The position numbers and the translations under genes were made by a program. From Candidatus Dormiibacterota bacterium (GTDB lineage Bacteria; Acidobacteriota; Polarisedimenticolia; Gp22-AA2), in contig DASQAT010000018.1 of the NCBI GenBank assembly GCA_035635555.1, positions 1-64,000 of the forward strand: a stretch of DNA of 64,000 bases. Reading direction: 5' to 3'. The notes beneath the pieces were generated by a model. That model was given only the letters and a program-made list of their open reading frames with translations, searched no databases and was not told the DNA's origin. Numbering within the stretch: the stretch's first letter is position 1; every line of letters starts with the position of its first letter. Positions 3,611 to 18,129 of the stretch are shown here, one piece after another.

Positions 3611-5299
3611 TCAGTGCGCCGCGGAGGAGTCCCAGACGATCCGCCCGCCCGCGATCGTGGTGACCGCCTTGACGTCCTTGATGGCGCGCGGGTCGATGGA
3701 GAAGATGTCGGCGCTGAGGATCACCAGGTCGGCGAGCATGCCCGGTGCGATCGATCCCTTCTCCTTCTCCTGGAACTCGGCGTAAGCGGAGCCCTTGGTG
3801 TACGCCTCGACCGCCTCCTTCACGGTGATCTTCTGGTCCGGCACCCAGCCGTCCGGGTTCCTGCCGTCGAGCGTGGCGCGGGTGGCGGCCGCGTAGATCG
3901 TCTGCATCGGGTCGAGGGGGGCGACGCTCCAGTCGGTGCCGAACGCCAGGCGCACGCCGCGGTCGAGGAAGGTGCGGAAGGCGTAGGTCGTCCTGATCCG
4001 CTCGGGACCGATGCGCTTCTCGGCCCAGCGGCCGTCGTCGATGGCGTGGTACGGCTGCATCGAGGCGATCACGTGCAGGGCCGCGAAGCGCTCGAAGTCC
4101 TTCGGCGCCACATGCTGCGCGTGCTCGATACGGAAACGACGGTCGCGCTCGCCGTTCGACCGCGCCACGTCGGCATAGAGATCGAGGATCATCGAGATCC
4201 CCCGGTCGCCGATGGCGTGGACGCAGAGCTGCAGTCCGGCGGCGTCGGCCTTCGTCATGCGATCGCGCATCGCATCGAGCGGCTGCATCTCGTCCGACAG
4301 GAGCCCGCGCGTCGAGGGTGCGTCGAGGTACGGCTCGAAGAAGCAGGCCGTCGTCGATCCGAGCGAGCCGTCGGCATAGCCCTTCAGGGCGCCGAGCCGC
4401 AGCCAGGAGGATCCGAAGGCGCGGCGCAGACCGATCTTCGCCTGGTCCCTCCAGTCGGTCAGCGACGGGGCGGCGTAGATCCGCGTCGTCAGCTCGCCGC
4501 GCTCGAGGAGATCGGCGTACACCGAGATGTCGTCGTACTCGGGATTCATGTCCTGCACGGACGTGACACCGAGCGAGGCGGCGTGCGCGAGCGCCCGGCG
4601 CGCCGCCCGCAGGCGTTGCTCGCGCGAGAAGGGGGGAATGACCTTCGCGACGAGCGACATCGCCGCGTCCTTGAACAGCCCGTTCGGCTCGCCCCGCGCG
4701 TCCCGGACGATCTCGCCGCCGGCGGGATCGGGCGTCTTCGCAGTCACGCCGGAGAGCCTCAGGGCGACGGAGTTCGCCAGCGCCATGTGGCCGTCGTAAC
4801 GGCTGAGGAAGACCGGTGTCGTAGGGGTCACGCGGTCGATGAGGGCGCGGTCGGGCAGCTTCGCCGGCGTCCAGTTCTGGTCGTCCCAGTTCCCCCCGAG
4901 GAGCCATTCCCCCTTCGGAGTGCGCGCGGCCCGCTCGGCGATCCGCTTCACGAACTCTTCCGTATCTTTCGTGTTCTTGAGGTCGAGGTTGTCGAGATCC
5001 ATGCCGCCGCTGACGAAGTGCACGTGCGCGTCGTTGAACCCCGGGACGACCCGCCGTCCCCCCGCGTCGATGACATGGGTGGCGGGACCGCGCCACGCGG
5101 ACACCTCGTCGCTCGCCCCCGCGGCCACGATGCGCTCGCCCAGGATGGCGACCGCCTCCGCCTCCGGATGGGCGGGATCACCCGTGAAGATCTTCGCGCC
5201 GGTGACGATCAGATCGGCCGCCGGCCGGGCCTGGAGGAGAGGGGTGGCCGGCAGAGACAGGCTCACGACCAGGAGAATCAGGGGAGGGCCGGCCCACAT
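3611..5299 (-). CDS. Secreted amidohydrolase family 3 protein (YtcJ-like)
   Basis: A 562-residue metal-dependent amidohydrolase of the amidohydrolase-3/YtcJ group. Residues 1-24 are a hydrophobic signal peptide, so it probably works outside the cytoplasm. The N-terminal beta-sandwich ([12 protein letters not shown]) is followed by [10 protein letters not shown] with the first two metal histidines at about residues 90-95. Later motifs include [19 protein letters not shown] and [13 protein letters not shown] with the catalytic Asp, and the C-terminal [15 protein letters not shown] closes the sandwich. The ATG directly abuts the TGA of the upstream helicase gene, so translational coupling is likely. 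Substrates in this family are diverse and poorly known; none is claimed. Confidence 0.9.
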
Positions 5300-7000
5300 T
5301 CAGGCCGCCTGACCCGGATTTCCGCCGGGGCCGCGGCCGCCCGGCGACCCGGGACCGCCGCCGTGCCCGCCGCGCCGGCGGCGCCGCCTCCTTCGTCCCG
5401 GCCCGGCCGCTCCGCCCCCCTGCGCGTCCTGGCGCTGGCCGCCGGACGCGGGTGGGTGCGCGGCGCGGCCGGCGGAGGACGACCCGCCCTCCCCGTCCGC
5501 GTAGACGCGCGGCGAGTCGACGGCGTCCGCGTCTCCCGCCGCGGCCGACTCGTCCAGAACACCGCGTGCCGCCTCCTCTTCGAAGTGGGTCTTCAGGAGA
5601 TAGCCGACGATCGCGAGCCTGTCGGCGTCGTCCAGGATTCCGCGCGCCATCGCCTCGTACTCGGCGCGCTCGTCCGGGGTGAGCCGCGCCGCCAGCTCCT
5701 TGAGCGTCTCCACGATCCGCCTCACTTTCCGGCGCGCCACTTCCTCATCGGAGGGCACGTCGATTTCGTAGGCCTTCAGATGGTTGGCCCGCACCAGCCG
5801 GTTGAAGTTCATGAGATCGAAGGCCGAGACGAGCGAGATCACGCGGCCGGTCTTGCCGATGCGGCCGGTGCGCCCCGCCCGGTGGATGTACTGGTCCGAC
5901 GAGTCGGGGGTCGAGTAGATGAAGACGTGCGACAGGTCCTCGATGTCGATGCCGCGCGCCGCCACGTCGGTGGCGACCAGGTGCTTGAGCGCCTTGCTCT
6001 TGAAACGCCGCATGACCTGCTCGCGCTTCTTCTGCGGCAGGTCGGAGGAGATCATGGCGACGGGAAGACCGCGCAGGGCCAGGTACGAGTGCACGAGGCG
6101 CGTTTCGGCCTTGGTGTTGCAGAAGATCATCGAAGAGGCCGGCGTCTCGTATTCGATCAGACGATAGAGCGCCGCCGCCTTGTCCATGCGCGACAGGATG
6201 CAGAACAGGTGCTGCACGCCCGTGACGTAGAGGGCGTCCTGCGACAGCATCAGCCGATCCGGCTCGCGCTGATATTTGATGGCGATCGCCTCGATCGACG
6301 ACGGGATGGTGGCCGAGAACATCAGGGTCTGCCGATCCTTCGGCACCTGGTCGAGGATCTGCTTGACCTCCTTCTCGAACCCCATGTCCAGCATCCGATC
6401 GGCCTCGTCCAGGACGAGGAAGCGCGTGGCGTCGAGACGGAGCGTCCTCTGGCCCAGGTGATCCAGGATGCGCCCGGGCGTCCCGACGACGACGTGCGCC
6501 CCCTGCTTGAGCCCGTCGATCTGCCGGGTCATCGAGTCACCGCCGTAGATCGCCAGGACCCTCACGCCCGAGCCCTGGCCGAGGCGGCCGAGCTCGTCCG
6601 CCACCTGCACGCTCAGCTCGCGCGTCGGGCAGAGGACGAGCGCCTGGACGCGCGGCATCGACGCGTCGACCTTCTCGACGATCGGAATGCCGAAGGCGGT
6701 CGTCTTGCCCGTGCCGGTGCGCGACTCGACGATCAGATCGCGGCCGGAGCGGGCGAGCGGGATGGAGCGTGCCTGCACCTCGGTCGCCTGGCCGTACCCC
6801 ATCGCCTCGAGAGACTTCAGGACCGGAGCGGGGAGATCGAGCGACGTGAAGGGCACCGGCACGGCCGGAAAGGCCGATCGCTCCTGGCCCTCGAGACGCA
6901 CCGGCGGCGCGGGCGGCGGCTCGCGCGGCGAGCCGCGCGGCCGGATCGCGACCACCCTCATCTGGCGGAGTTTCCCGGACTTCTTCGAAGGCTGATCCAT
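5300..7000 (-). CDS. DEAD-box ATP-dependent RNA helicase
   Basis: A 566-residue DEAD-box helicase that unwinds RNA duplexes or remodels ribonucleoprotein in the cytoplasm. The Q-motif region is near residues 50-80, Walker A SRTGTGKT at 93-100, PTRELS near 125, GTPGR near 173, DEAD at 198-201, SAT in motif III, ARGID in motif V and HRAGRTGR in motif VI. The last roughly 70 residues are Arg- and Gly-rich low complexity, a common RNA-binding tail. The ATG at 7000 shares one base with the TGA of the upstream cysteine hydrolase; the longer open frame to 7180 is an artefact. It resembles RhlE/CsdA-type helicases but I cannot assign a subgroup. Confidence 0.94.
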   Translation of the reverse strand: MDQPSKKSGKLRQMRVVAIRPRGSPREPPPAPPVRLEGQERSAFPAVPVPFTSLDLPAPVLKSLEAMGYGQATEVQARSIPLARSGRDLIVESRTGTGKTTAFGIPIVEKVDASMPRVQALVLCPTRELSVQVADELGRLGQGSGVRVLAIYGGDSMTRQIDGLKQGAHVVVGTPGRILDHLGQRTLRLDATRFLVLDEADRMLDMGFEKEVKQILDQVPKDRQTLMFSATIPSSIEAIAIKYQREPDRLMLSQDALYVTGVQHLFCILSRMDKAAALYRLIEYETPASSMIFCNTKAETRLVHSYLALRGLPVAMISSDLPQKKREQVMRRFKSKALKHLVATDVAARGIDIEDLSHVFIYSTPDSSDQYIHRAGRTGRIGKTGRVISLVSAFDLMNFNRLVRANHLKAYEIDVPSDEEVARRKVRRIVETLKELAARLTPDERAEYEAMARGILDDADRLAIVGYLLKTHFEEEAARGVLDESAAAGDADAVDSPRVYADGEGGSSSAGRAAHPPASGGQRQDAQGGGAAGPGRRRRRRRRGGHGGGPGSPGGRGPGGNPGQAA

Positions 7001-7650
7001 CAGATGCCGAGCACCCCTCCGATGATCTGGCCGGTCGTCATCATGCAGACTCCCCGGGACGCCCAGCCCGCGACCAGGCGCTCTCCCTCGTCGGGCTTGA
7101 TGGCCCGCGTCGCGTCCTGCACCAGGGCGACGCGGTAACGCTTCCTCACGAGGAGCCCCTCGATGGCGTACCGGTCGCACACGTCCAGGGCCACACCGTA
7201 TACCACGATGCGGTCGGGACGCACAGCCTCGAGGACGGTGTCCACGTTCGGGTTGCTGAACACGTCGAAGCGCTGCTTGCGGAACAGGACTTCGCCCCCC
7301 CGGTCGAGGTGCCGCTTCACGCGCTGCTTCAGCGCCACCTTGTCCTCCGGACTGCTGTCGATGAAGAGGGGATCCTTCGGGCGAGTGGCCTCGACCTTCT
7401 CCTGACCCGGCGTGCCGGCGAGGCAGTGCGGCGGGAAGGTCTCCCGGAAGTCGGGCTGGTCCGAGATCTCACTGTCGTTCGCGGCATGGTAATCGACCGA
7501 CCCGAGGAGCGGGAGGCGTTTCTCGCGCGCGAAGCCGGTCAGGGCCAAGAGATTCGGCAGGATCGCCTCGGCCCCCTGGATGTAGAGGTCCCCGTCCGGC
7601 ATGATGAAATCACGCTGCGTGTCGACATCCCAGAAGACCGTTCGCGTCAT
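7000..7650 (-). CDS. Isochorismatase-family cysteine hydrolase (nicotinamidase-like)
   Basis: A 216-residue cysteine hydrolase related to nicotinamidase PncA, which deamidates nicotinamide to nicotinate for NAD salvage. The catalytic triad is visible: Asp8 (WDVDTQRDF), Lys125 (FRKQRFDVF) and Cys158 (ALDVCDRYA). SVDYHAAND near residue 52 and FPPHCLAGTPGQ near 72 match the PncA metal-site and substrate regions. Length is normal. A promoter with -10 TAGAAT ends 11 bases before the ATG and there is no Shine-Dalgarno sequence, so the message may be leaderless. It heads a run with the helicase and amidohydrolase. Nicotinamidase is favoured over isochorismatase but not proven. Confidence 0.85.
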   Translation of the reverse strand: MTRTVFWDVDTQRDFIMPDGDLYIQGAEAILPNLLALTGFAREKRLPLLGSVDYHAANDSEISDQPDFRETFPPHCLAGTPGQEKVEATRPKDPLFIDSSPEDKVALKQRVKRHLDRGGEVLFRKQRFDVFSNPNVDTVLEAVRPDRIVVYGVALDVCDRYAIEGLLVRKRYRVALVQDATRAIKPDEGERLVAGWASRGVCMMTTGQIIGGVLGI

Positions 7651-8102: not shown

Positions 8103-9512
8103 TTACAGCACTACCGGGTAGATCTTGCGGTGGACGTGGGCGCGGTCGAGGGCCTTGCCGCTGCCGAAATCCCAATGGACGAGTGCTACGAACTGCTCCT
8201 CGACAAAGCAGCGCGCCATGATCATCGACAGGTCCTCGAGCGAGGGGACCGGCAGGCGTCGCGTCAGGCCCGCGAGGGCGTTCTGGCCCGGCAGGATGGA
8301 GACGAGCGCGGGGCGCTCGTCGAACAGGGTCGCCTCGAACTCCGGGAGATCGCGGCGCGTGTACGACGTCATGCCAGCCAGCGACAGGGCGGCGCGGCTC
8401 TCCCGGCCCTCGGTCCTTGGCGTCAGGCGGAAGCCGGTGTGCAGCGCGAAGTCGTCGAGCGGGTCGGGGCGCGGATCGGCCGGACGAGCGGCCGCGACGA
8501 TAGGGAGCCGGAGCGGATGGCCGTCCCGTTCCACCGTGATCGTGGTCTTCTCCCCGATCGTCTGGTCGAGGACCGCGTCGAGCGCCTCGAAGACGTCGCC
8601 CGTGGCGACATCGCCCACGGTCACGACGCGGTCGCCGACCCGGACGCCGGCCTCGGCGGCGGGGCTGTCGGGGTAGACGCGTCGCACGCGCGCGCCGGCG
8701 TTCCTGTCCCAGCCCTTCCCTTCGCTCGCGGCCAGGAGCGGGTCGTCCATGAGCATTCCGATCCAGGGCCACTCCGCCTGCGGCGTTCCGAGCATCCGTT
8801 TCATGGCGCGCCGGGCATGGCGCGCCGGGATGAACAGGCCGGCGGCGTGCCGGTCGGTCCGCTGCGTCGCCTCCTCGGTGTAGGTGACGAGCAGGCTCGG
8901 GATGCCGACGAGGTGTCCGGCCGTGTCGAGGATGGCGCCGCCGGAATTACCCGGACCGATCGGCGCGTCGACTTCCGACCAGAACTCGAGCGGCCTGGCG
9001 CCGACTCTGACCCTGCGGTGCGTCCCCATCCTGGCCCAGGCGATCTGGGGGCCGCGATCTCCGAGATTGCCGAGGACGTACAGCCGCGTCCCGGGCGCCG
9101 GCAGGCCGTCCTCGGAGAACGGCACGGATCGAAGGCGGCCGCCGGAGGTCTTCAAGAGAGCCAGGTCGGAGGATTCGTCCACCGAGACGACGCTGGCGCT
9201 CAGGTCGCGGCCGTCCGCCGTCGCGATGTCCACGCGCGTGGCGCCCGCGACGACGTGAGCGTTGGTCAGGATGAGACCATCCTCCGAGACGACCACTCCC
9301 GATCCGGCGCCGAGTCCTTCCACCTGCTCGCGCAGGAAGCGGCCGCCGCGAAACACCGGCACTTTCACGACCTCGTGGACGCGCACGCTCACGACGGCGC
9401 CGAAGGCCGCCGTCACCGCCTCAGGGATCGACTCGACCCCCGGGGCGGACGGTGCGACGGTCATCGATGACGCGGCGAGAAGAGCGACGGAAGCGGACGT
9501 CAGGATGCGCAT
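8103..9512 (-). CDS. HtrA/DegP-like trypsin-family serine protease with PDZ domain
   Basis: A 469-residue periplasmic or surface protease of family S1C, expected to degrade or hold damaged envelope proteins. Residues 1-25 form a signal peptide. The trypsin-like domain has the catalytic His in LTNAHVV, Asp in ESSDLALLK and Ser in GPGNSGGA. A PDZ-like domain follows (RVYPDSPAAEAGVRVGDRVVTVG). The last roughly 130 residues have no match I recognise. The ATG at 9512 starts a proper signal peptide; the open frame extends to 10109 but that part is antisense to the neighbouring gene. Its -10 lies in a palindrome shared with the divergent protease-like gene at 9569, implying joint control. There is a single PDZ rather than the two of DegP. 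Confidence 0.9.
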   Translation of the reverse strand: MRILTSASVALLAASSMTVAPSAPGVESIPEAVTAAFGAVVSVRVHEVVKVPVFRGGRFLREQVEGLGAGSGVVVSEDGLILTNAHVVAGATRVDIATADGRDLSASVVSVDESSDLALLKTSGGRLRSVPFSEDGLPAPGTRLYVLGNLGDRGPQIAWARMGTHRRVRVGARPLEFWSEVDAPIGPGNSGGAILDTAGHLVGIPSLLVTYTEEATQRTDRHAAGLFIPARHARRAMKRMLGTPQAEWPWIGMLMDDPLLAASEGKGWDRNAGARVRRVYPDSPAAEAGVRVGDRVVTVGDVATGDVFEALDAVLDQTIGEKTTITVERDGHPLRLPIVAAARPADPRPDPLDDFALHTGFRLTPRTEGRESRAALSLAGMTSYTRRDLPEFEATLFDERPALVSILPGQNALAGLTRRLPVPSLEDLSMIMARCFVEEQFVALVHWDFGSGKALDRAHVHRKIYPVVL

Positions 9513-9518
9513 GCCGGT

Positions 9519-9535
9519 CGGGAATATAATTCCCG
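9519..9535. promoter_or_regulatory. Palindromic bidirectional -10 region
   Basis: CGGGAAT-ATA-ATTCCCG is a perfect inverted repeat with 7-base arms. It contains TATAAT (9525-9530) reading right and TATATT (9528-9523) reading left, serving both divergent genes. The leftward -10 ends 10 bases before the HtrA-like ATG. No good -35 is seen on either side, which could mean activator dependence. Confidence 0.5.
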
Positions 9536-9568: not shown

Positions 9569-11740
9569 ATGCGCTTTCCCGGCCTGCCGGTTCTCGTGGC
9601 GCTGGCGCTCGGTCCCGGTGTCGTCCTTTCGACTCCCCGGCCGGAGCGCATGGCGTCAGAGCCAGCGCCAGGAGCGGATCGGCCGGGGCGTCAGGGTTCC
9701 GCCGCGGCGGGCGCCATCGAGCTCGCAAGGCTTGGTGAGTTTCTGGACTGGGCCCATCCCGCGGGTGACGGCTGCGGGTCGCCTGCAGACCTCGCGATCG
9801 TCGAGACCTGGGACGGCGGCGTGCGCGCCAGTTACCGGATCGTCTGCGGCCCCTCGATCCGCGCGCTGGAGGGGGTCTTCCAGGTGCGCGAGCAGGTGCG
9901 CGACAAGGAGAGGGTCTGGCAGGTCTCCGGGGGCTTCGAGGCCGACGCTCCCCGGATCGATGCCGCGCTCGGGCCGCCCCGGGGCACCCCGGGCGCCGTG
10001 TCCGGGGCTGCCGGCGCCGGGCGCCCCGTTCCTCCTCCCGCCGGGCTCGCGCCGCCGCCCGCGAACACCGGCGCCCTGCCGCCGGATTCGCCGCTGCGCT
10101 TCGTCGCACCGCCGGAGGCGACGATCGAGACCCCGCCCGAGTTCCCCGAGGAGGCGGGCCGGGCGAGGCTCATCGGCGAGGCGCATGTCGAGCTGCTCGT
10201 GCAGATTTCCCCCGAGGGAGCGCCGCTAAGGGCGCGACCGCTGCGCGGACCCGATCCGGATCTCGGAATGCGACGCGCGGCGATCGACGCCGTGCTGCGC
10301 TGGCGGTTCGAGCCGGCGCTTCTCAGAGGCTCGCCGCTGACCTATTACAGGCCGGTCGAGCTGACCTTCGGCGGCCTTCCCCCGGAATCGCGGGACTGGG
10401 TGCACCGCGCCCTGTTTCACGTCGAGGCCATCGTCTCGGACGACGAGCTGGTGGTGCAGGAGGCCCTGCGCCGTGTGAAGGCGGGCGAGCCGTTCGCCTC
10501 GGTGGCGGAGCAGGCGATCGGGACCGGGCCGGAGCGCGGCGGCGACTGGGGGTTCGTGTCCGCGGCAGCCTTCCCCGCCGCCGTGCGCAAGGCGCTGCAC
10601 GAGGCGCGCGTCGATGGCCTGGCCGGGCCGGTGGCCGCCGAGGGACGCTTCTATCTTCTTCTGAAGCGCGGCGAGCTGTACTACGCCTTCGATCCGCGGC
10701 CGGGTGGCGGGATGTCGTACGACATTCTGCACCGGAGGAACGCTCCGGAGGGGGAGTCTCTCAAGCAGGCCGTGGAGGGGGATATCGCGGATTACCTGGC
10801 CGAAAACCGGCGGCAGGCCTACCTGAACGAGGCGGCGCGCACGATGGGGATCAAGCAGGTGGAGACGGAGATCGGACAGCTCGAGATCCGCACCGACGTC
10901 CTGGACGAGGAGGAGACCAGGATCCTGGGCCAGGTGGTCGAGGCGACCGTCCGCGCCCACCAGCAATTCTGGGGACCGCTCGTGACCCTGCGCCCTTTCA
11001 GCCAGAAGGTGCAGGTGTACGCCTGGGCGCGCAAGGCCGATCACGATCGGATGCACCGCCTGTGGCTCGCGTCCGGCGGGAAGGGGGCATCCGGAGAGAC
11101 GAGGCCCGCCGGGAGCGCCGGCGGCACCCCGTCCGGCTCCGAAGTATGGAGCTTCACCGGCGAGTACATTCCTGCGTCGCGCATCCTGTCGGTGCCGTGC
11201 GAGAGGATGTCGGGACACCTGCCGGTGCCGATCGTCATCCACGAAGCGATCCACATGCTCGACTACGAGAGGACGTACGGGCAGGGGGACCAGCCGTCGA
11301 AGTGGTTCGAGGAAGGGCTCGCGACCTACTTCGGGTTCTCGCAGATCGGGTCGCGGTTGAACATCGAGCCCGGGGCCATCCGCCGGTCCGGCACGATCCA
11401 GGCGGGGACGGTGCGGGTCCAGTTCGATCCGCGCACCCCCCTGCGGGAGTATATAAAGAGGATAGAAGGGGGCGAGCCGGTCCCCCTGCGCACTCTGCTC
11501 ACCTCGAAGGCGGGCGACACGCTGTGGAGCGGGGACCGGGCGGTCCTGGCCTACGGCGCCTCGTGGACGCTCGTCCACTTCCTGATCCACGGTGCGAAGG
11601 GGGCGCACCGCCCCGCGTTCGAGGATTACGCCCGCGCGGAGGCGCAGGGAAAGGGGGGCTATGACACTTTCGTCCGTCTGTTCGGCCCCGACCTGGTCCC
11701 GCTCGAGGAGCAGTGGCACGAGTACGAGGACGATCTCTAG
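9569..11740 (+). CDS. TonB_C / parvulin-like / gluzincin peptidase fusion protein
   Basis: A 723-residue exported protein with three recognisable parts. Residues 1-25 are a signal peptide. About 181-270 resembles a TonB C-terminal domain (EAHVELLVQISPEGAP, then RRAAIDAVLRWRFEPAL). About 278-374 resembles a parvulin peptidyl-prolyl isomerase (EALRRVKAGEPFASVAEQ, GDWGFVSAAAFP). The C-terminal part carries a gluzincin zinc site: HEAIH at 558-562 and WFEEGLATYF with the third ligand Glu near 581-582. The ATG at 9569 is preferred to 9557 because GGGAGG sits 4 bases before it. It is divergent from the HtrA-like protease through a palindromic promoter, so an envelope protein-folding or processing role is likely (inference). 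I do not know this architecture as a named family. Confidence 0.82.
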   Translation: MRFPGLPVLVALALGPGVVLSTPRPERMASEPAPGADRPGRQGSAAAGAIELARLGEFLDWAHPAGDGCGSPADLAIVETWDGGVRASYRIVCGPSIRALEGVFQVREQVRDKERVWQVSGGFEADAPRIDAALGPPRGTPGAVSGAAGAGRPVPPPAGLAPPPANTGALPPDSPLRFVAPPEATIETPPEFPEEAGRARLIGEAHVELLVQISPEGAPLRARPLRGPDPDLGMRRAAIDAVLRWRFEPALLRGSPLTYYRPVELTFGGLPPESRDWVHRALFHVEAIVSDDELVVQEALRRVKAGEPFASVAEQAIGTGPERGGDWGFVSAAAFPAAVRKALHEARVDGLAGPVAAEGRFYLLLKRGELYYAFDPRPGGGMSYDILHRRNAPEGESLKQAVEGDIADYLAENRRQAYLNEAARTMGIKQVETEIGQLEIRTDVLDEEETRILGQVVEATVRAHQQFWGPLVTLRPFSQKVQVYAWARKADHDRMHRLWLASGGKGASGETRPAGSAGGTPSGSEVWSFTGEYIPASRILSVPCERMSGHLPVPIVIHEAIHMLDYERTYGQGDQPSKWFEEGLATYFGFSQIGSRLNIEPGAIRRSGTIQAGTVRVQFDPRTPLREYIKRIEGGEPVPLRTLLTSKAGDTLWSGDRAVLAYGASWTLVHFLIHGAKGAHRPAFEDYARAEAQGKGGYDTFVRLFGPDLVPLEEQWHEYEDDL

Positions 11741-11755: not shown

Positions 11756-12739
11756 ATGCACGAGGACCCGCAAGACGATTCCGGCGAGGACACCGAGCCC
11801 CCCTCGGAGGGATACGTCTGGGGATTCGCACGCCAGGAGCGCGAGCTGCCCGCGAAGGACTACCGCGCCCACATCCGTCTCCTCGACGAGGTCGAGGAGG
11901 AGGAGCTGGAACGGCTCGACCTGTCGCGCGCCGACGACTACATCCTCTGGGCGGCCGCGCAGGCGTTCGAGGAGATCGATCGCGACCAGGACGCCATCGC
12001 ACTCCTGAAACGAATCGCCGACTCGACGGCGCGCCACCCCGCCCTCAACTATGCCGACATCTTTCTGCGCCTGTCGGAGCACCTGAAGGACCGCGGCGAC
12101 TACGATGAAGCGGTCGCGGCGCTGGACAAGGCGGAAGGGATCGAACCGGACCTGCACGTCCCCTGCGACGAACGCCGGGCGGAGATCCTGGTCCTGCGCG
12201 GCCGGACCGGCGAGGGGCTGGCTCTGTTCCGGGAGACGGCGCGCGCCGCTCCCGGCGATCCCTGGGTGCCGCTGCGCGCCGGCTGGGCGCTCCTGGCCTC
12301 GGGGCGCTACGCCGAGATCCCGTCCTGGATCGAGGAGAGCGAGCGCGCCCTCAAGGACGTGAACGATGAAGAGGAGACCCGACTGGCGGCCGGCGAGATC
12401 GACCGTCTGCGGCAGGAGGCGGAGGGCCGGCTGGCCCGGCGCGAGCGCCTCGAGGCGTCAGGGGTGGGCCCGGTCGCGGGCCTCGAGCGGCTGAAGGACG
12501 AGATCCTGTCGGATCTCGACGCCGAGGAATCCCGGCTGACCGGAAATCCGCCCCGCACGGAAGACGCCCGCGCCCGGGCGGGCGAGCGCCTGGCCGCGCT
12601 GCACGCCCGCGCCTCGAAGGGGTGGGACGACGCGGTGGAGGCGCGTGACGAGACGCTCATCGCGGAATTCGACACTCTGCAATGGGACGTCGCCGGGCTG
12701 GCCGGTCGCTTCGCGATTCCGCTGCCGGGGGTCGATTAG
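11756..12739 (+). CDS. TPR-containing protein of unknown function
   Basis: A 327-residue soluble, acidic protein with no signal peptide. TPR-like helical pairs are visible from about residue 60 to 200 (ILWAAAQAFEEIDRDQDAIALLKRI and YDEAVAALDKAEGIEPD-type units, broken here by linkers). The C-terminal third is charged and probably helical. It starts 15 bases after the fusion-protein stop, with a G-rich stretch before the ATG, so the two are probably co-transcribed. TPR proteins mediate protein contacts; no partner is evident. The gene ends 18 bases before the convergent DsbA-like gene. Confidence 0.82.
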   Translation: MHEDPQDDSGEDTEPPSEGYVWGFARQERELPAKDYRAHIRLLDEVEEEELERLDLSRADDYILWAAAQAFEEIDRDQDAIALLKRIADSTARHPALNYADIFLRLSEHLKDRGDYDEAVAALDKAEGIEPDLHVPCDERRAEILVLRGRTGEGLALFRETARAAPGDPWVPLRAGWALLASGRYAEIPSWIEESERALKDVNDEEETRLAAGEIDRLRQEAEGRLARRERLEASGVGPVAGLERLKDEILSDLDAEESRLTGNPPRTEDARARAGERLAALHARASKGWDDAVEARDETLIAEFDTLQWDVAGLAGRFAIPLPGVD

Positions 12740-12757: not shown

Positions 12758-13840
12758 CTACTGGTTGCGCTCCAGCTCCGAGTCGATGATCTCGGCGAAG
12801 GAGTTGACGTCGCGGGCGCCCACCATCGGGATGCCGTTGATGAAGAAGGTCGGGGTGCCGGTCACGCCGTACTTCTGACCATCGTCGAAGTCCTTCTGCA
12901 CCTCATCCTTGAACTTGCCGCTCTCCAGGCAGGTCTTGAATTTGTCCTTGTCGATTCCGGAGATGGCGGCGGCGGTCTCGACCAGCTCCGGCTGCGTGAG
13001 CTTGGCCTGGTTGGCGAACATCGCGTTGTGCATCTCCCAGAACTTGCCCTGGTCCTTGGCGCACTCCGAGGCCTGGGCGGCGATGTTGGCGTTCGGGTGG
13101 AACTGCAGCGGATAGTCGCGATACACGAGGCGCACCTTGTCCCCGTATTTCTTCAGGACCTCCTCCACCGTCGTCTCGGCACGGCTGCAGTACGGGCACT
13201 GGTAATCCGAAAACTCGACGATCGTGACGGGGGCCTTGGCGGGGCCCTTCGCGGCATCGTTATCCACGGCGATCTCGATCCGCGGCGGCTCGAGCAGCGT
13301 CTTGACCCCGTACTTCTTGCGCAGCCCCTTCATGTAGTCACGCTGCGCGTCCGCGAGCTTCTGGTTCTTGAGCATGGCGGCGATCTGGGGCGCGAGCTGC
13401 TCCTTCGTCTGGGTCCCGAATTGCGGCTTGTGCTGTTCGTAGAAGCTGTCGATGTCGGCCTGCGGCGGGTCGGTCACCTTGTCCGTGACATCGGTCTTGA
13501 GCAGGTCGTCCTTGCCCACCTTCTTGGCGGCCGCCTCCTTCATCAGGACTTCGTTGTTCACCATCGCCTCGAGCGCTTGCCGGCGGGCATCGTACTCCTC
13601 CTGACGCACCCGGGTGAGAGCGCTGGCCGCCTGGACGTCGAGCTCCTGCAGCGTGATGGTCTTGTCGCCGATCATCGCCACGGGCGTGGTCGGGCTCAGC
13701 GAGGCGGCGGTCGCGGTTGTCTTCTTCGCGTCCTTGCCGCTCTCCTTGCTGGGATCGCCCGTGGCTGCGGTGCACGCGAAGGCCGCGCTGGCGCACACGA
13801 CGGCGGCGAATGAAATGAGCCGTTTGCTGCGGGGTTGCAT
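12758..13840 (-). CDS. DsbA-family thiol oxidoreductase with SurA-like N-terminal region
   Basis: A 360-residue exported protein. Residues 1-23 form a signal peptide ending near a Cys (AFAC), so lipidation is possible but the lipobox is imperfect. Residues about 55-180 resemble the helical N-terminal chaperone region of SurA/PpiC proteins (EMVNNEVLMKEAAAK-like helix, then IDSFYEQHKPQF). Residues about 200-360 form a DsbA-like thioredoxin fold with CPYC at 215-218 and the cis-proline loop TGTPTFFING. It probably introduces or shuffles disulfides in exported proteins, relevant next to very Cys-rich secreted proteins. The start is supported by AAGGAGG 7 bases upstream. No DsbB or VKOR partner is in the window. 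Confidence 0.9.
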   Translation of the reverse strand: MQPRSKRLISFAAVVCASAAFACTAATGDPSKESGKDAKKTTATAASLSPTTPVAMIGDKTITLQELDVQAASALTRVRQEEYDARRQALEAMVNNEVLMKEAAAKKVGKDDLLKTDVTDKVTDPPQADIDSFYEQHKPQFGTQTKEQLAPQIAAMLKNQKLADAQRDYMKGLRKKYGVKTLLEPPRIEIAVDNDAAKGPAKAPVTIVEFSDYQCPYCSRAETTVEEVLKKYGDKVRLVYRDYPLQFHPNANIAAQASECAKDQGKFWEMHNAMFANQAKLTQPELVETAAAISGIDKDKFKTCLESGKFKDEVQKDFDDGQKYGVTGTPTFFINGIPMVGARDVNSFAEIIDSELERNQ

Positions 13841-14412: not shown

Positions 14413-14604
14413 TTCACCTGTCAGGTCAACACCCGAGATTACGCGCTGTGACGTCTCCGCGCGACGTGCGGGCCGCGAGTCGCGTCGGCGGCCCGAATGC
14501 GCTCCCGCGATGTGACCCTGCGACGTAACCTTCCTGCCGGGTGCTGGAGCGTCTCGCCGACGGCTCCCGATGCTCTAATCGCCACGATCGGAAAGGAGTC
14601 CATC

Positions 14605-17600
14605 ATGCTCAATCGTCCTTCGGGTGGCATCGGCCTGACCGTCGTCACTTCGTGTGTGGTTGCGCTCGGCTTCCTGTCGGCAGATGCGGCACGCGCCGAC
14701 TGTCCTGCCGGGCAGTCGAATCCGATCACGAGCGGCCGGGGCGACCTGCGGCCGCCGATCATCCTGGGCAATCTCGGGGCGGCGCCGCGGGCGTATTTCT
14801 ATCTCCTGGGCTCGGGGAACATCAACAACAGCGGCTCATTGCCGGCGTCGGCCTGGCTGCACAACGTGGGCGACCTCGACGGAGACGGCCGCCCCGATTT
14901 CCGCATCGACGCTCCCGGAGACGGACCGGGTGGCTGGGGCGATCCACGGACCAACGGCTGCCCGTCGACGCTCGACCCGTCGCATCCGCCGCTCGTGATC
15001 GTCATCACGCACGAGAGGGAGGACCGGGACGGTGACGGCAAGTTCGACATCTTCGAAGACATCAATCACAACGGCGTGCTCGACCCGGGGGAGGATCGGG
15101 ACGGGGACGGCCGCCTGACTCCGCCGGGCGGGTGCGAAGGGGCCCTGCGCGAGGACGTCGACTGCGACGGCCACGCGGACATGTTCTGGGAGGACGACAA
15201 CGGCAACCACCAGCTCGATCCGGGCGAGGACCGGGATGGTGACGGCCGGCTCGATTACATCGACGAGGACGCCAACCACAACGGCGTGCTCGATCCGGGT
15301 GAGGACAGGAACGAAAACGGCCGTCTCGACACGTTCGATCCCAGTTTCCCGAACATCCACCCGTACATCGAGGACAGAAACGGGAATTTCACCCTCGATG
15401 ACCGCTCCATCCCACGCAGCGACGATCCGGTGCCGCTCTACCCGTACGGCGAGCTGAGCCCGGCGCCGGGCGGGATCATCGTCGTCACGGTCGCATGGGA
15501 CGGCACGGCGTACGACCTGTCGAACATCACGACGCCCACCCGCATCGTGCCTGGCGTGCAGGGGCGGTTCCTGGATGCGACGTCTCTCGATCGTCTGACC
15601 CCCGCGGTGTCGGGCGTCAGCAGGAAATCCGATGCGACCTGGCGGATGAGGTTCGACGTGCGCGGCACCGACCTGGCCGACGACCTGGGCGGCACGCGCG
15701 ACATCTTCGATCGCTATTCGATCTCGGCGTTGACGCGACTGTCTCCGATGGACGCCCTTCTGGAGCGCTTCCTCTTCCTGGAGACCGGGACATCGCTCCT
15801 GACGATGCCGGCTGCCGGGAACGGCAGGGCGGGCGGATTCGCGTCGATCCTGCCGCGCGATCCGACGCGGCCCTTCCCGGTCCTCGGTCCGGTCGACGCC
15901 GGGCCGCTCGCCCCGGAGCAGGACGCACAGTTCGAAGCGGACGCGGCGCGCATCTTCCGGATCGACAACCTTCTCGATCAGGATGGCGACGGCGTGCCTC
16001 TCCCGCACGACATCTGCCCGGGAGTCGCGAATCCGGCGCAGGACGACGCCAACCACGACGGCCTTGGGGACGCCTGCGATCCTGCCCTGCTGTCACCCGG
16101 CTCCGTCGTGGATCGGTGGACGCAGGTCGCGGGTCCCGCGAGCCCGGGACCGCGCGACGGCGCTGCGGCTGCATTCGACGCGCGGCGCGGCGTGGCCGTC
16201 CTGTTCGGCGGATCGTCCGACGCCTCGACCTGGGAATTCAACGGCTCGACGTGGAGGCGAGTCGCAACTGCGGCGGCCCCCGCCCCCCGGCGCGGCCACG
16301 GCATGGTGTTCGACGCGGCGCGCGGCCGGGTCGTGCTGTTCGGCGGCGAACGTCGGTCCGACGGGACGCTCCTGAACGACCTCTGGACCTACGATGGGAC
16401 TACCTGGCGCCTGGTGACGACCGCGGTCGCCCCTTCGCCGCGCGCCGAGTTCGGCCTCGCCTTCGATTCGACCCGGGGCCGCACGGTCATGTTCGGGGGC
16501 CGTTCGGCGCACGGAGCGCTGGGGGACACGTGGATGTTCGACGGCTCGGCGTGGCGGCTTCTGCCTTCGCCGCAATCGCCGGCAGCGCGCTTCCAGGCTC
16601 AGATGGCTTTCGACGGATTCCGCCAGGTCACGGTCCTGAACGGCGGCATCGATCCCGCGGCCGCGATCCCGCAGCTCAACGATACCTGGGAGTTCGACGG
16701 CGCTGCCTGGCAGCCTGCCGACACGCGCGGCAACGTCCCGCCGACCTGGAACGGCGTCCTGACCTTCGACCCGCCACGCCGCCGAATGGTCCTCTCAGGA
16801 GGCGTCACACGCGACCCGGCCCGCCTGTCCACGGGACTGGCGGTGATCCAGACGGCTGCCGCCCGTCTGTACGACGGCGTCTCATGGAGCGCCCTCGCCA
16901 CTCTGGCCACGCTGCCGGCGCGCGCCGGACACGCGGCGGCGCAGGACCTCGTGCGCGGCGTCCTGCTGGTCCACGGAGGGCACGCCTCCGGTGCGCTGGC
17001 CGACTCGTGGACGCTCCGACAGGGGGGGGACGCGGACGGCGACGGTGTCGCCGACGCGAGCGACAACTGTCCTCTCGTGGCGAACCCCGCCCAGGATGAT
17101 TTCGACGGCGACCGCAGCGGCGACGCTTGCGACAACTGTCCCAGCACGTTCAATCCCACGCAGCGCGATCTCGATCGGGACGGCCAGGGGGACGCCTGCG
17201 ACGACGACCTCGACGGCGACGGCGTTCCGAACGGCAGCGACGCCTGCCCGGCCGCCTACGTCGCCGGCCGGCCTGCGGCCCAGATCGGGCAGGGTGGCGG
17301 GCCGGACAGCGACGGCGACGGGATCCCGGACGACTGCGACGTCTGCCCGCGCGATCCGGCGAACGATGCCGATCACGACGGCGTGTGCGGCGACCGCGAC
17401 AACTGTCCCCTCGCCTTCAACCCGCTGCAGTCCGACGCCAATGGAGACGGCGCGGGAGACGCCTGCCAGCCCGTGGTCCGCATCGCCTCCGTCACCCTCA
17501 TGCGTGACGGAACCCTGAACGCCCTGGTCGCCGCCGGCGATCCGGACGGCGACACGCTGCGAGGAACGGTCGAGGTGTTCGCGACCACGCGTCTCCTGAA

Positions 17601-18129
17601 CGTCATCCCGCGCCTGTCGGAGGCCTGCTCCCTGGCCTTCCAGCCTGACGGAGTCGCGGGCGAAGGGATCGTCTACGCCGTCAACCCGGGGGCGCCGCCG
17701 TTCCTCGCCGACGTCGATTCGAACGTCGGGTGCTCGGACGGCCAGGCCGACTTCCTGATCGCCATCGGCACCTGCGCCGAGGCGCTGGTATCCGGCCTCT
17801 TCTCATCCGAGGCGGTCCTCGATCGCACGGCGCCATTCCAGGTCTGCGTGAGGCGCGTCTCCGACCCGGGGCACCTGTCCGAGTACACGCTCTTCAGCTA
17901 CGACAGCGGCTCGGCGGCCCTCGGCCCGGTCGGACCGGCGGTCGTGTCGATGCCGTACGACCGCTCCCGCCTGCCGCGGTCGATCGATCTCACGTCCCTG
18001 CCCGGGCCCGGCACGTACATCCTCCGGATCACCGCGGACGACGGCGAAACACCCGCAGCCTCGGACCAGCGAGCCTTCCCATGGAGCGGGGAGAGGGTGC
18101 TGTACCTCAACCGTCCGCCGCGCCCCTAG
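14605..18129 (+). CDS. Large secreted TSP3 / kelch-type protein
   Basis: A 1174-residue exported protein. Residues 1-32 form a signal peptide. Residues about 139-265 hold four Asp/Gly-rich calcium-binding units of the form EDRDGDG...DxNxNGVLDPGED. One TSP3-like unit lies near 452-495 (DGDGVPLPHDICPGVANPAQDD). Residues about 502-808 form kelch-like repeats with the recurring pattern VLFGG...TWEFDGxxW, a probable beta-propeller. TSP3 repeats resume at about 809-955 (DNCPLVANPAQDDFDGD and relatives). A tail of about 220 residues follows. The ATG is supported by GGAAAGGAG about 6 bases upstream; the open frame to 14497 is unlikely to be used. No sorting signal was recognised at the C-terminus. 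Likely extracellular, calcium-stabilised and adhesive or structural (inference). Confidence 0.86.
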   Translation: MLNRPSGGIGLTVVTSCVVALGFLSADAARADCPAGQSNPITSGRGDLRPPIILGNLGAAPRAYFYLLGSGNINNSGSLPASAWLHNVGDLDGDGRPDFRIDAPGDGPGGWGDPRTNGCPSTLDPSHPPLVIVITHEREDRDGDGKFDIFEDINHNGVLDPGEDRDGDGRLTPPGGCEGALREDVDCDGHADMFWEDDNGNHQLDPGEDRDGDGRLDYIDEDANHNGVLDPGEDRNENGRLDTFDPSFPNIHPYIEDRNGNFTLDDRSIPRSDDPVPLYPYGELSPAPGGIIVVTVAWDGTAYDLSNITTPTRIVPGVQGRFLDATSLDRLTPAVSGVSRKSDATWRMRFDVRGTDLADDLGGTRDIFDRYSISALTRLSPMDALLERFLFLETGTSLLTMPAAGNGRAGGFASILPRDPTRPFPVLGPVDAGPLAPEQDAQFEADAARIFRIDNLLDQDGDGVPLPHDICPGVANPAQDDANHDGLGDACDPALLSPGSVVDRWTQVAGPASPGPRDGAAAAFDARRGVAVLFGGSSDASTWEFNGSTWRRVATAAAPAPRRGHGMVFDAARGRVVLFGGERRSDGTLLNDLWTYDGTTWRLVTTAVAPSPRAEFGLAFDSTRGRTVMFGGRSAHGALGDTWMFDGSAWRLLPSPQSPAARFQAQMAFDGFRQVTVLNGGIDPAAAIPQLNDTWEFDGAAWQPADTRGNVPPTWNGVLTFDPPRRRMVLSGGVTRDPARLSTGLAVIQTAAARLYDGVSWSALATLATLPARAGHAAAQDLVRGVLLVHGGHASGALADSWTLRQGGDADGDGVADASDNCPLVANPAQDDFDGDRSGDACDNCPSTFNPTQRDLDRDGQGDACDDDLDGDGVPNGSDACPAAYVAGRPAAQIGQGGGPDSDGDGIPDDCDVCPRDPANDADHDGVCGDRDNCPLAFNPLQSDANGDGAGDACQPVVRIASVTLMRDGTLNALVAAGDPDGDTLRGTVEVFATTRLLNVIPRLSEACSLAFQPDGVAGEGIVYAVNPGAPPFLADVDSNVGCSDGQADFLIAIGTCAEALVSGLFSSEAVLDRTAPFQVCVRRVSDPGHLSEYTLFSYDSGSAALGPVGPAVVSMPYDRSRLPRSIDLTSLPGPGTYILRITADDGETPAASDQRAFPWSGERVLYLNRPPRP

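Follow-up and report, generated by a model that had tools for sequence, protein, structure and literature searches.

Within the 64,000-nucleotide stretch of DNA analysed here (the window), positions 9569 to 11740 of the forward strand form one open frame of 723 residues, with an ATG at 9569, a stop codon at 11738-11740 and a GGGAGG a few bases 5' of the ATG. Judged by its sequence, this is a single intact gene under purifying selection. The open frame, Pfam matches, alignment and a structural model together point to an exported protein with a signal-peptide-like N-terminus, a region that we call the N-domain, a TonB_C domain, a parvulin-like domain and a gluzincin-type zinc peptidase, in that order. 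Domain scans place an HtrA-like serine protease (Trypsin_2 plus PDZ) on the reverse strand at 8103..9512, divergent from this gene and separated from it by a 56-bp gap, and a TPR protein without an evident signal peptide 15 bp downstream, on the forward strand at 11756..12739. A further 18 bp past the TPR gene, on the opposite strand at 12758-13840, lies a gene for a DsbA/Thioredoxin_4 protein with a weak SurA_N-like match, below cutoff, at its N-terminus.

In the Pfam scan of the whole protein, TonB_C and DUF1570 exceed their curated cutoffs; Rotamase and Rotamase_2 do not reach theirs. At E<=1, TonB_C and DUF1570 are matched in all six complete orthologues (the window's copy included), and Rotamase and Rotamase_2 in four of the six each. 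The initial annotation had named the TonB_C, parvulin-like and zinc-peptidase parts, and these three calls are borne out by Pfam, the orthologue matches, profile searches and, for the first two, the model. It had also recognised no named architecture in the whole, and indeed no single Pfam or NCBIfam family spans the full combination in whole-protein scans. We did not find the architecture in the open-access literature searched, and the combination of N-domain, TonB_C, parvulin and DUF1570 is new to us. It is a real and conserved combination, assembled from known parts.

Modules ahead of the peptidase

Residues 1-45 (9569..9703, forward strand) comprise the signal-peptide-like N-terminus and a variable linker, and evolve fast among the orthologues. 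The hydrophobic stretch is short, with a maximum KD19 of 1.86 here and of 1.41-2.03 across six orthologues. We infer that the N-terminus acts as a Sec signal and is cleaved off, and hence that the protein would be periplasmic or extracellular.

The N-domain, residues 46-136 (9704..9976, forward strand), was absent from the initial description. A separate model of this domain, with a pLDDT of 89.8, predicts a helix, four strands and a closing helix, and two cysteines, Cys69 and Cys93, are invariant in 6/6 orthologues. Whole-protein scans gave no Pfam or NCBIfam match here, and there was no credible sequence match to solved structures. Fold matches are middling only, to VirB8, NTF2-like and cystatin structures; the best Z-score, 7.8 for the VirB8-like 6zgn, and that of 7.3 for a cystatin are both within the range of a common arrangement. 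The N-domain was found in 7 of 396 phylum genomes, all of them from this bacterial family.

The TonB_C domain, residues 189-263 (10133..10357, forward strand), scores 28.7 bits against the Pfam model PF03544 (E 1.9e-6; cutoff 24.6), and the NCBIfam TonB model is 0.1 bit under its cutoff on the 723-residue protein. TonB structures come at the top of the Foldseek list for the AlphaFold model (mean pLDDT 57.7, with the N-domain, TonB_C and parvulin parts fairly confident), which is headed by the TonB C-terminal structure 1u07 (E 2e-3) and SurA. The domain shares both fold and sequence with the TonB energy transducer, but it lies in mid-protein (189-263 of 723) where TonB's is C-terminal, and the protein shows no clear membrane anchor. 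A transducer role is therefore unlikely, and the earlier label of energy-transducer-like suits the fold and not the work done.

A parvulin-fold domain follows at about residues 278-376 (10400..10696, forward strand), supported by profile, model and alignment, and after it come a strand and a long helix, residues 377-430 (10697..10858, forward strand), that appear in the model and are conserved. The protein on its own matches weakly, with an E-value of 0.018 and 16.4 bits against a cutoff of 21.7 for Rotamase (PF00639) and an E-value of 0.032, also below cutoff, for Rotamase_2. The best Rotamase_2 E-value among the six complete orthologues is 4.2e-5, and among solved structures SurA (1.3e-5) and PrsA (4.5e-5) are retrieved with a profile built from residues 268-428. 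VIA-align of the predicted parvulin part gives Z 12.8 for PrsA 6vj6 (98 residues at 2.8 A) and Z 12.2 for Par14 3ui4 (1.7 A over 91 residues). As the part is firm in the profile and in the predicted fold, weak as it is in the lone protein, the parvulin call stands; profile searches of each third of the protein and, for the TonB_C and parvulin parts, the predicted structure agree with the initial annotation.

Catalysis is another matter. In the alignment to PrsA, the positions of what we take to be the two catalytic histidines of parvulins are occupied by A287 and Y362, both invariant in 6/6 orthologues. A one-residue shift of the alignment would bring position 361 to the second site; this position is histidine in five of the six and phenylalanine in the window protein. 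Because both histidines are replaced by invariant residues, prolyl isomerisation by this domain appears unlikely, so that "prolyl-isomerase-like" holds for the fold and probably not for catalysis. Nor is this the genome's main isomerase, since five other Rotamase matches in the genome are above cutoff; the parvulin-region profile found no second matching place in the same genome.

A TonB_C fold is able to pair with the extended strand of a partner, and a dead parvulin fold can still bind an extended peptide, so by analogy these two domains may bind peptides as well. The envelope parvulins PpiD, SurA and PrsA also have a parvulin fold followed by a helix. The window protein differs from them in that the Pfam scan recognised no SurA-type N-terminal chaperone module, in being fused to a peptidase and in falling below the Rotamase cutoff. 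A dead parvulin in an envelope protein has precedent, as the parvulin domain of the E. coli envelope chaperone PpiD is devoid of isomerase activity, and the chaperone activity lies outside that domain, according to PMC2956729.

The putative zinc peptidase and its relatives

Residues 431-723 (10859..11737, forward strand) are assigned to the DUF1570/peptidase MA gluzincins by Pfam, profiles and alignment. The DUF1570 model (PF07607) matches residues 555-674 with 23.1 bits (E 9.7e-5), narrowly above its cutoff of 22. The motif HEAIH occupies residues 558-562, and E582 is the glutamate before the glycine in WFEEGLA; H558, E559, H562, E581 and E582 are invariant in 6/6 orthologues, completing an HExxH with a downstream glutamate, and E582 is also present in every row of a 21-row alignment drawn from several families of the phylum. 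The same HExxH, downstream glutamate and WxxEGLA-like motif are found in the DUF1570/Peptidase_MA (PF07607, PF13485) putative gluzincins. A wider peptidase profile also matched M9 collagenases and M1 aminopeptidases, both of which are gluzincins, at the HExxH region with E-values of 0.018 or weaker. The assignment of a peptidase fold rests on sequence profiles, because the full-length model is poor in this region, with residues 415-626 below a pLDDT of 50. From these residues the zinc-peptidase active site looks intact.

Relatives in the DUF1570/peptidase MA group vary widely, and to our knowledge no function has been tested for any of them. Those that we saw lack the N-domain and the parvulin, and most lack TonB_C, whereas the window protein has all three. 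The glutamate of HExxH is missing in several (L018, L019 and L054), so activity is not a safe assumption for the wider group. In L018 (HGVSH) and L019 (HSVSH), the genes for the glutamate-less peptidase relative and for a separate TonB_C protein meet tail to tail, as unfused neighbours (1126-2094 and 2115-2933 of L018; 1102-2079 and 2098-3006 of L019). In L054 and L046, two more relatives of the peptidase, HExxH is degenerate as well. Going by these motifs, pseudo-enzymes may be common among the DUF1570 relatives.

Fusion of TonB_C to this type of peptidase is seen beyond the family. Among ten chosen proteins, four from other Acidobacteriota have the same order, TonB_C and then peptidase, in one protein: L020, with both domains above cutoff; L021, where TonB_C passes and DUF1570 falls short (19.5 against 22); and, more weakly, L060, with DUF1570 above and TonB_C below, and L064, with both below. 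All four differ from the window protein in lacking the parvulin and the N-domain. Part of the architecture is therefore wider than the family. Separate origins for the two TonB_C-DUF1570 fusions were considered and set aside: a first AU test rejected a single clade (p 0.00033), but this hinged on L046, a sequence lacking TonB_C that clusters with the TonB_C set. Without L046, neither a single fusion origin (p 0.195) nor a grouping of this family and five peptidases that lack TonB_C (p 0.374) was rejected. Both rounds of AU testing left out the long branches L007, L023 and L054, the second also L046, and L073, L076 and L077 fell outside the peptidase tree owing to the domain E-value limit.

Distribution and selection

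The gene is present in 7 of the 8 genomes of its bacterial family, the window's included. Five relatives (G001, G002, G003, G005 and G006) have full-length orthologues with 52-71% identity by blastp, while G004 has the N-terminal part only, cut at a contig end and covering the first 274 model positions, and was excluded from the orthologue alignment (A1). The eighth genome, G007, which is 63% complete, gave no match to the gene.

Among 396 genomes of the phylum (this family included), with the two best candidates per genome scored, only the six complete copies match over the whole length, and, the cut G004 copy aside, the remaining matches are to peptidase alone or to TonB_C alone. The outcome was the same in 41 genomes of the class with up to 28 candidates scored per genome. 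The Pfam DUF1570 model is too insensitive for such a survey, as at 1e-5 it detects 7 of the 41 class genomes and misses the window's copy itself. This survey of Acidobacteriota architectures, a check that had been suggested from the outset, shows on the sequence evidence that within the genomes searched the full architecture is restricted to one family, with TonB_C plus DUF1570 lacking the parvulin being more widespread. A single-sequence search of a wider set of genome contigs, which leans on short conserved peptides, gave no relatives, and a search with the alignment as query gave five loci, all from Acidobacteria; since such scans depend on short conserved peptides, distant copies could exist in other phyla. 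A plasmid collection gave no match.

We estimated dN/dS by the Nei-Gojobori method for three orthologue pairs (window-G003, G002-G001 and window-G002, in that order). The values are 0.18, 0.16 and 0.22 for TonB_C, 0.27, 0.19 and 0.23 for the parvulin, 0.27, 0.26 and 0.38 for the peptidase, and 0.35, 0.46 and 0.42 for the N-domain. These ratios show purifying selection on every domain, with TonB_C and the parvulin at least as constrained as the peptidase.

Gene neighbourhood and possible function

The HtrA-like gene, which had been described as lying opposite the peptidase gene and does so, is divergent from it in 7/7 of the family genomes having the gene (6/6 relatives examined, plus the window). 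The G006 match is in two pieces, so the HtrA gene may be broken or divergent in sequence there. The gap between the two genes contains a conserved TATAAT-centred near-palindrome, GGGAATATAATTCCC, at 9520..9534, that is found in 7/7 genomes, with no mismatches in four of them, one in G005 and G006, and two in G003. The 4.28-Mb genome has no second copy of the element's 13-bp core. Near-symmetric TATAAT elements can drive transcription in both directions (PMC10268837), and by this analogy it is a reasonable inference that the element is a shared or bidirectional promoter of the HtrA gene and the peptidase gene; an operator site is the alternative reading. The HtrA start codon is just 7 bp from the element, and thus the HtrA transcript may have almost no leader.

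On the other side, the TPR gene is kept downstream in 5/5 relatives whose contig extends that far, and it is likely to be in the same operon as the peptidase gene. As the TPR protein has no evident signal peptide, the operon would not be purely an envelope one. These five relatives also have a DsbA-type gene at a distance of up to about 5 kb.

An envelope maturation or quality-control role for the 723-residue protein, as the initial annotation had proposed, is a plausible reading, and one that the conserved divergent pairing with HtrA strengthens. The explanation that we favour, and hold with moderate confidence, is that the protein is an exported gluzincin-type metallopeptidase with three non-catalytic modules ahead of its active site, acting with HtrA in envelope protein quality control or processing. 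The signal would place the protein in the periplasm or outside the cell, where the TonB_C fold and the dead parvulin fold, by analogy with their better-known counterparts, might hold substrates or partners for the C-terminal zinc site to cut. HtrA would probably be expressed from the same intergenic promoter region, and the two enzymes might jointly serve the quality control or processing of envelope proteins. An unlikely, more ambitious version makes the protein a self-contained "hold-and-cut" machine of the envelope, in which TonB_C and the dead parvulin, as folds that bind strands or peptides, would trap unfolded proteins of the outer membrane or the TonB system and pass them on to the zinc peptidase fused behind. 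A single symmetric promoter would turn on this machine and HtrA together, and in this lineage the machine would take the place of chaperone and protease systems that are otherwise separate.

It is also conceivable, if somewhat doubtful, that the N-domain, TonB_C and parvulin are mainly a pro-region or an inhibitory or structural scaffold, with the peptidase latent until processed, for example by HtrA. The modules do come before the peptidase and a divergent protease gene does adjoin in 7/7 genomes, but conservation of TonB_C and the parvulin equals or exceeds that of the peptidase. A disposable pro-region would not need so much, and this counts against the reading, if not decisively. A specialised envelope metallopeptidase apart from quality control, digesting nutrient peptides or shedding surface proteins, would fit a lineage-restricted gene with widely varying relatives; we think it decidedly unlikely, as the HtrA linkage, kept in every one of those seven genomes, points to quality control. 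For a TonB-like transducer or TonB competitor, engaging TonB-dependent receptors and processing their cargo or plugs, one may cite the Pfam score and the resemblance of the model to the TonB C-terminal domain, but the domain is internal, the N-terminal hydrophobic stretch is short in all six orthologues, and the genome has other TonB_C proteins, including L003, in which a TM-like segment (judged from the sequence by eye) precedes TonB_C as in classical TonB, so that we consider this role quite improbable. Least probable is that the protein works as a prolyl isomerase or foldase in the maturation of exported proteins, the peptidase then acting second. The clear parvulin fold speaks for this, but under the PrsA alignment both catalytic histidines are lost to invariant alanine and tyrosine, and the slipped alignment offers the window protein only a phenylalanine at 361.

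Returning to the metallopeptidase with substrate-holding modules, a working analogy, and only that, is BepA, an M48 periplasmic metalloprotease with TPR (PMC7950410). Like the window protein, BepA joins an envelope zinc peptidase to a non-catalytic part, although the peptidase family and the accessory domain both differ. If the explanation we favour is true, an envelope peptidase would have taken over folds familiar from energy transduction and from protein folding as modules for peptide capture, HtrA would have a testable partner in a little-studied bacterial group, and one DUF1570 lineage would have its first functional lead. If the protein is merely a lineage-specific peptidase, it would still be a clean case of domain recombination.

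Two other long frames in the window were seen by eye. At 14497-18129 is a 1210-residue open reading frame rich in calcium-binding-like repeats of the DxDxDG type, along with stretches that look kelch-like. At 3614-7138, a 1174-residue open frame runs antisense to genes that look like an amidohydrolase and a DEAD-box helicase, and is most likely a high-GC artefact.
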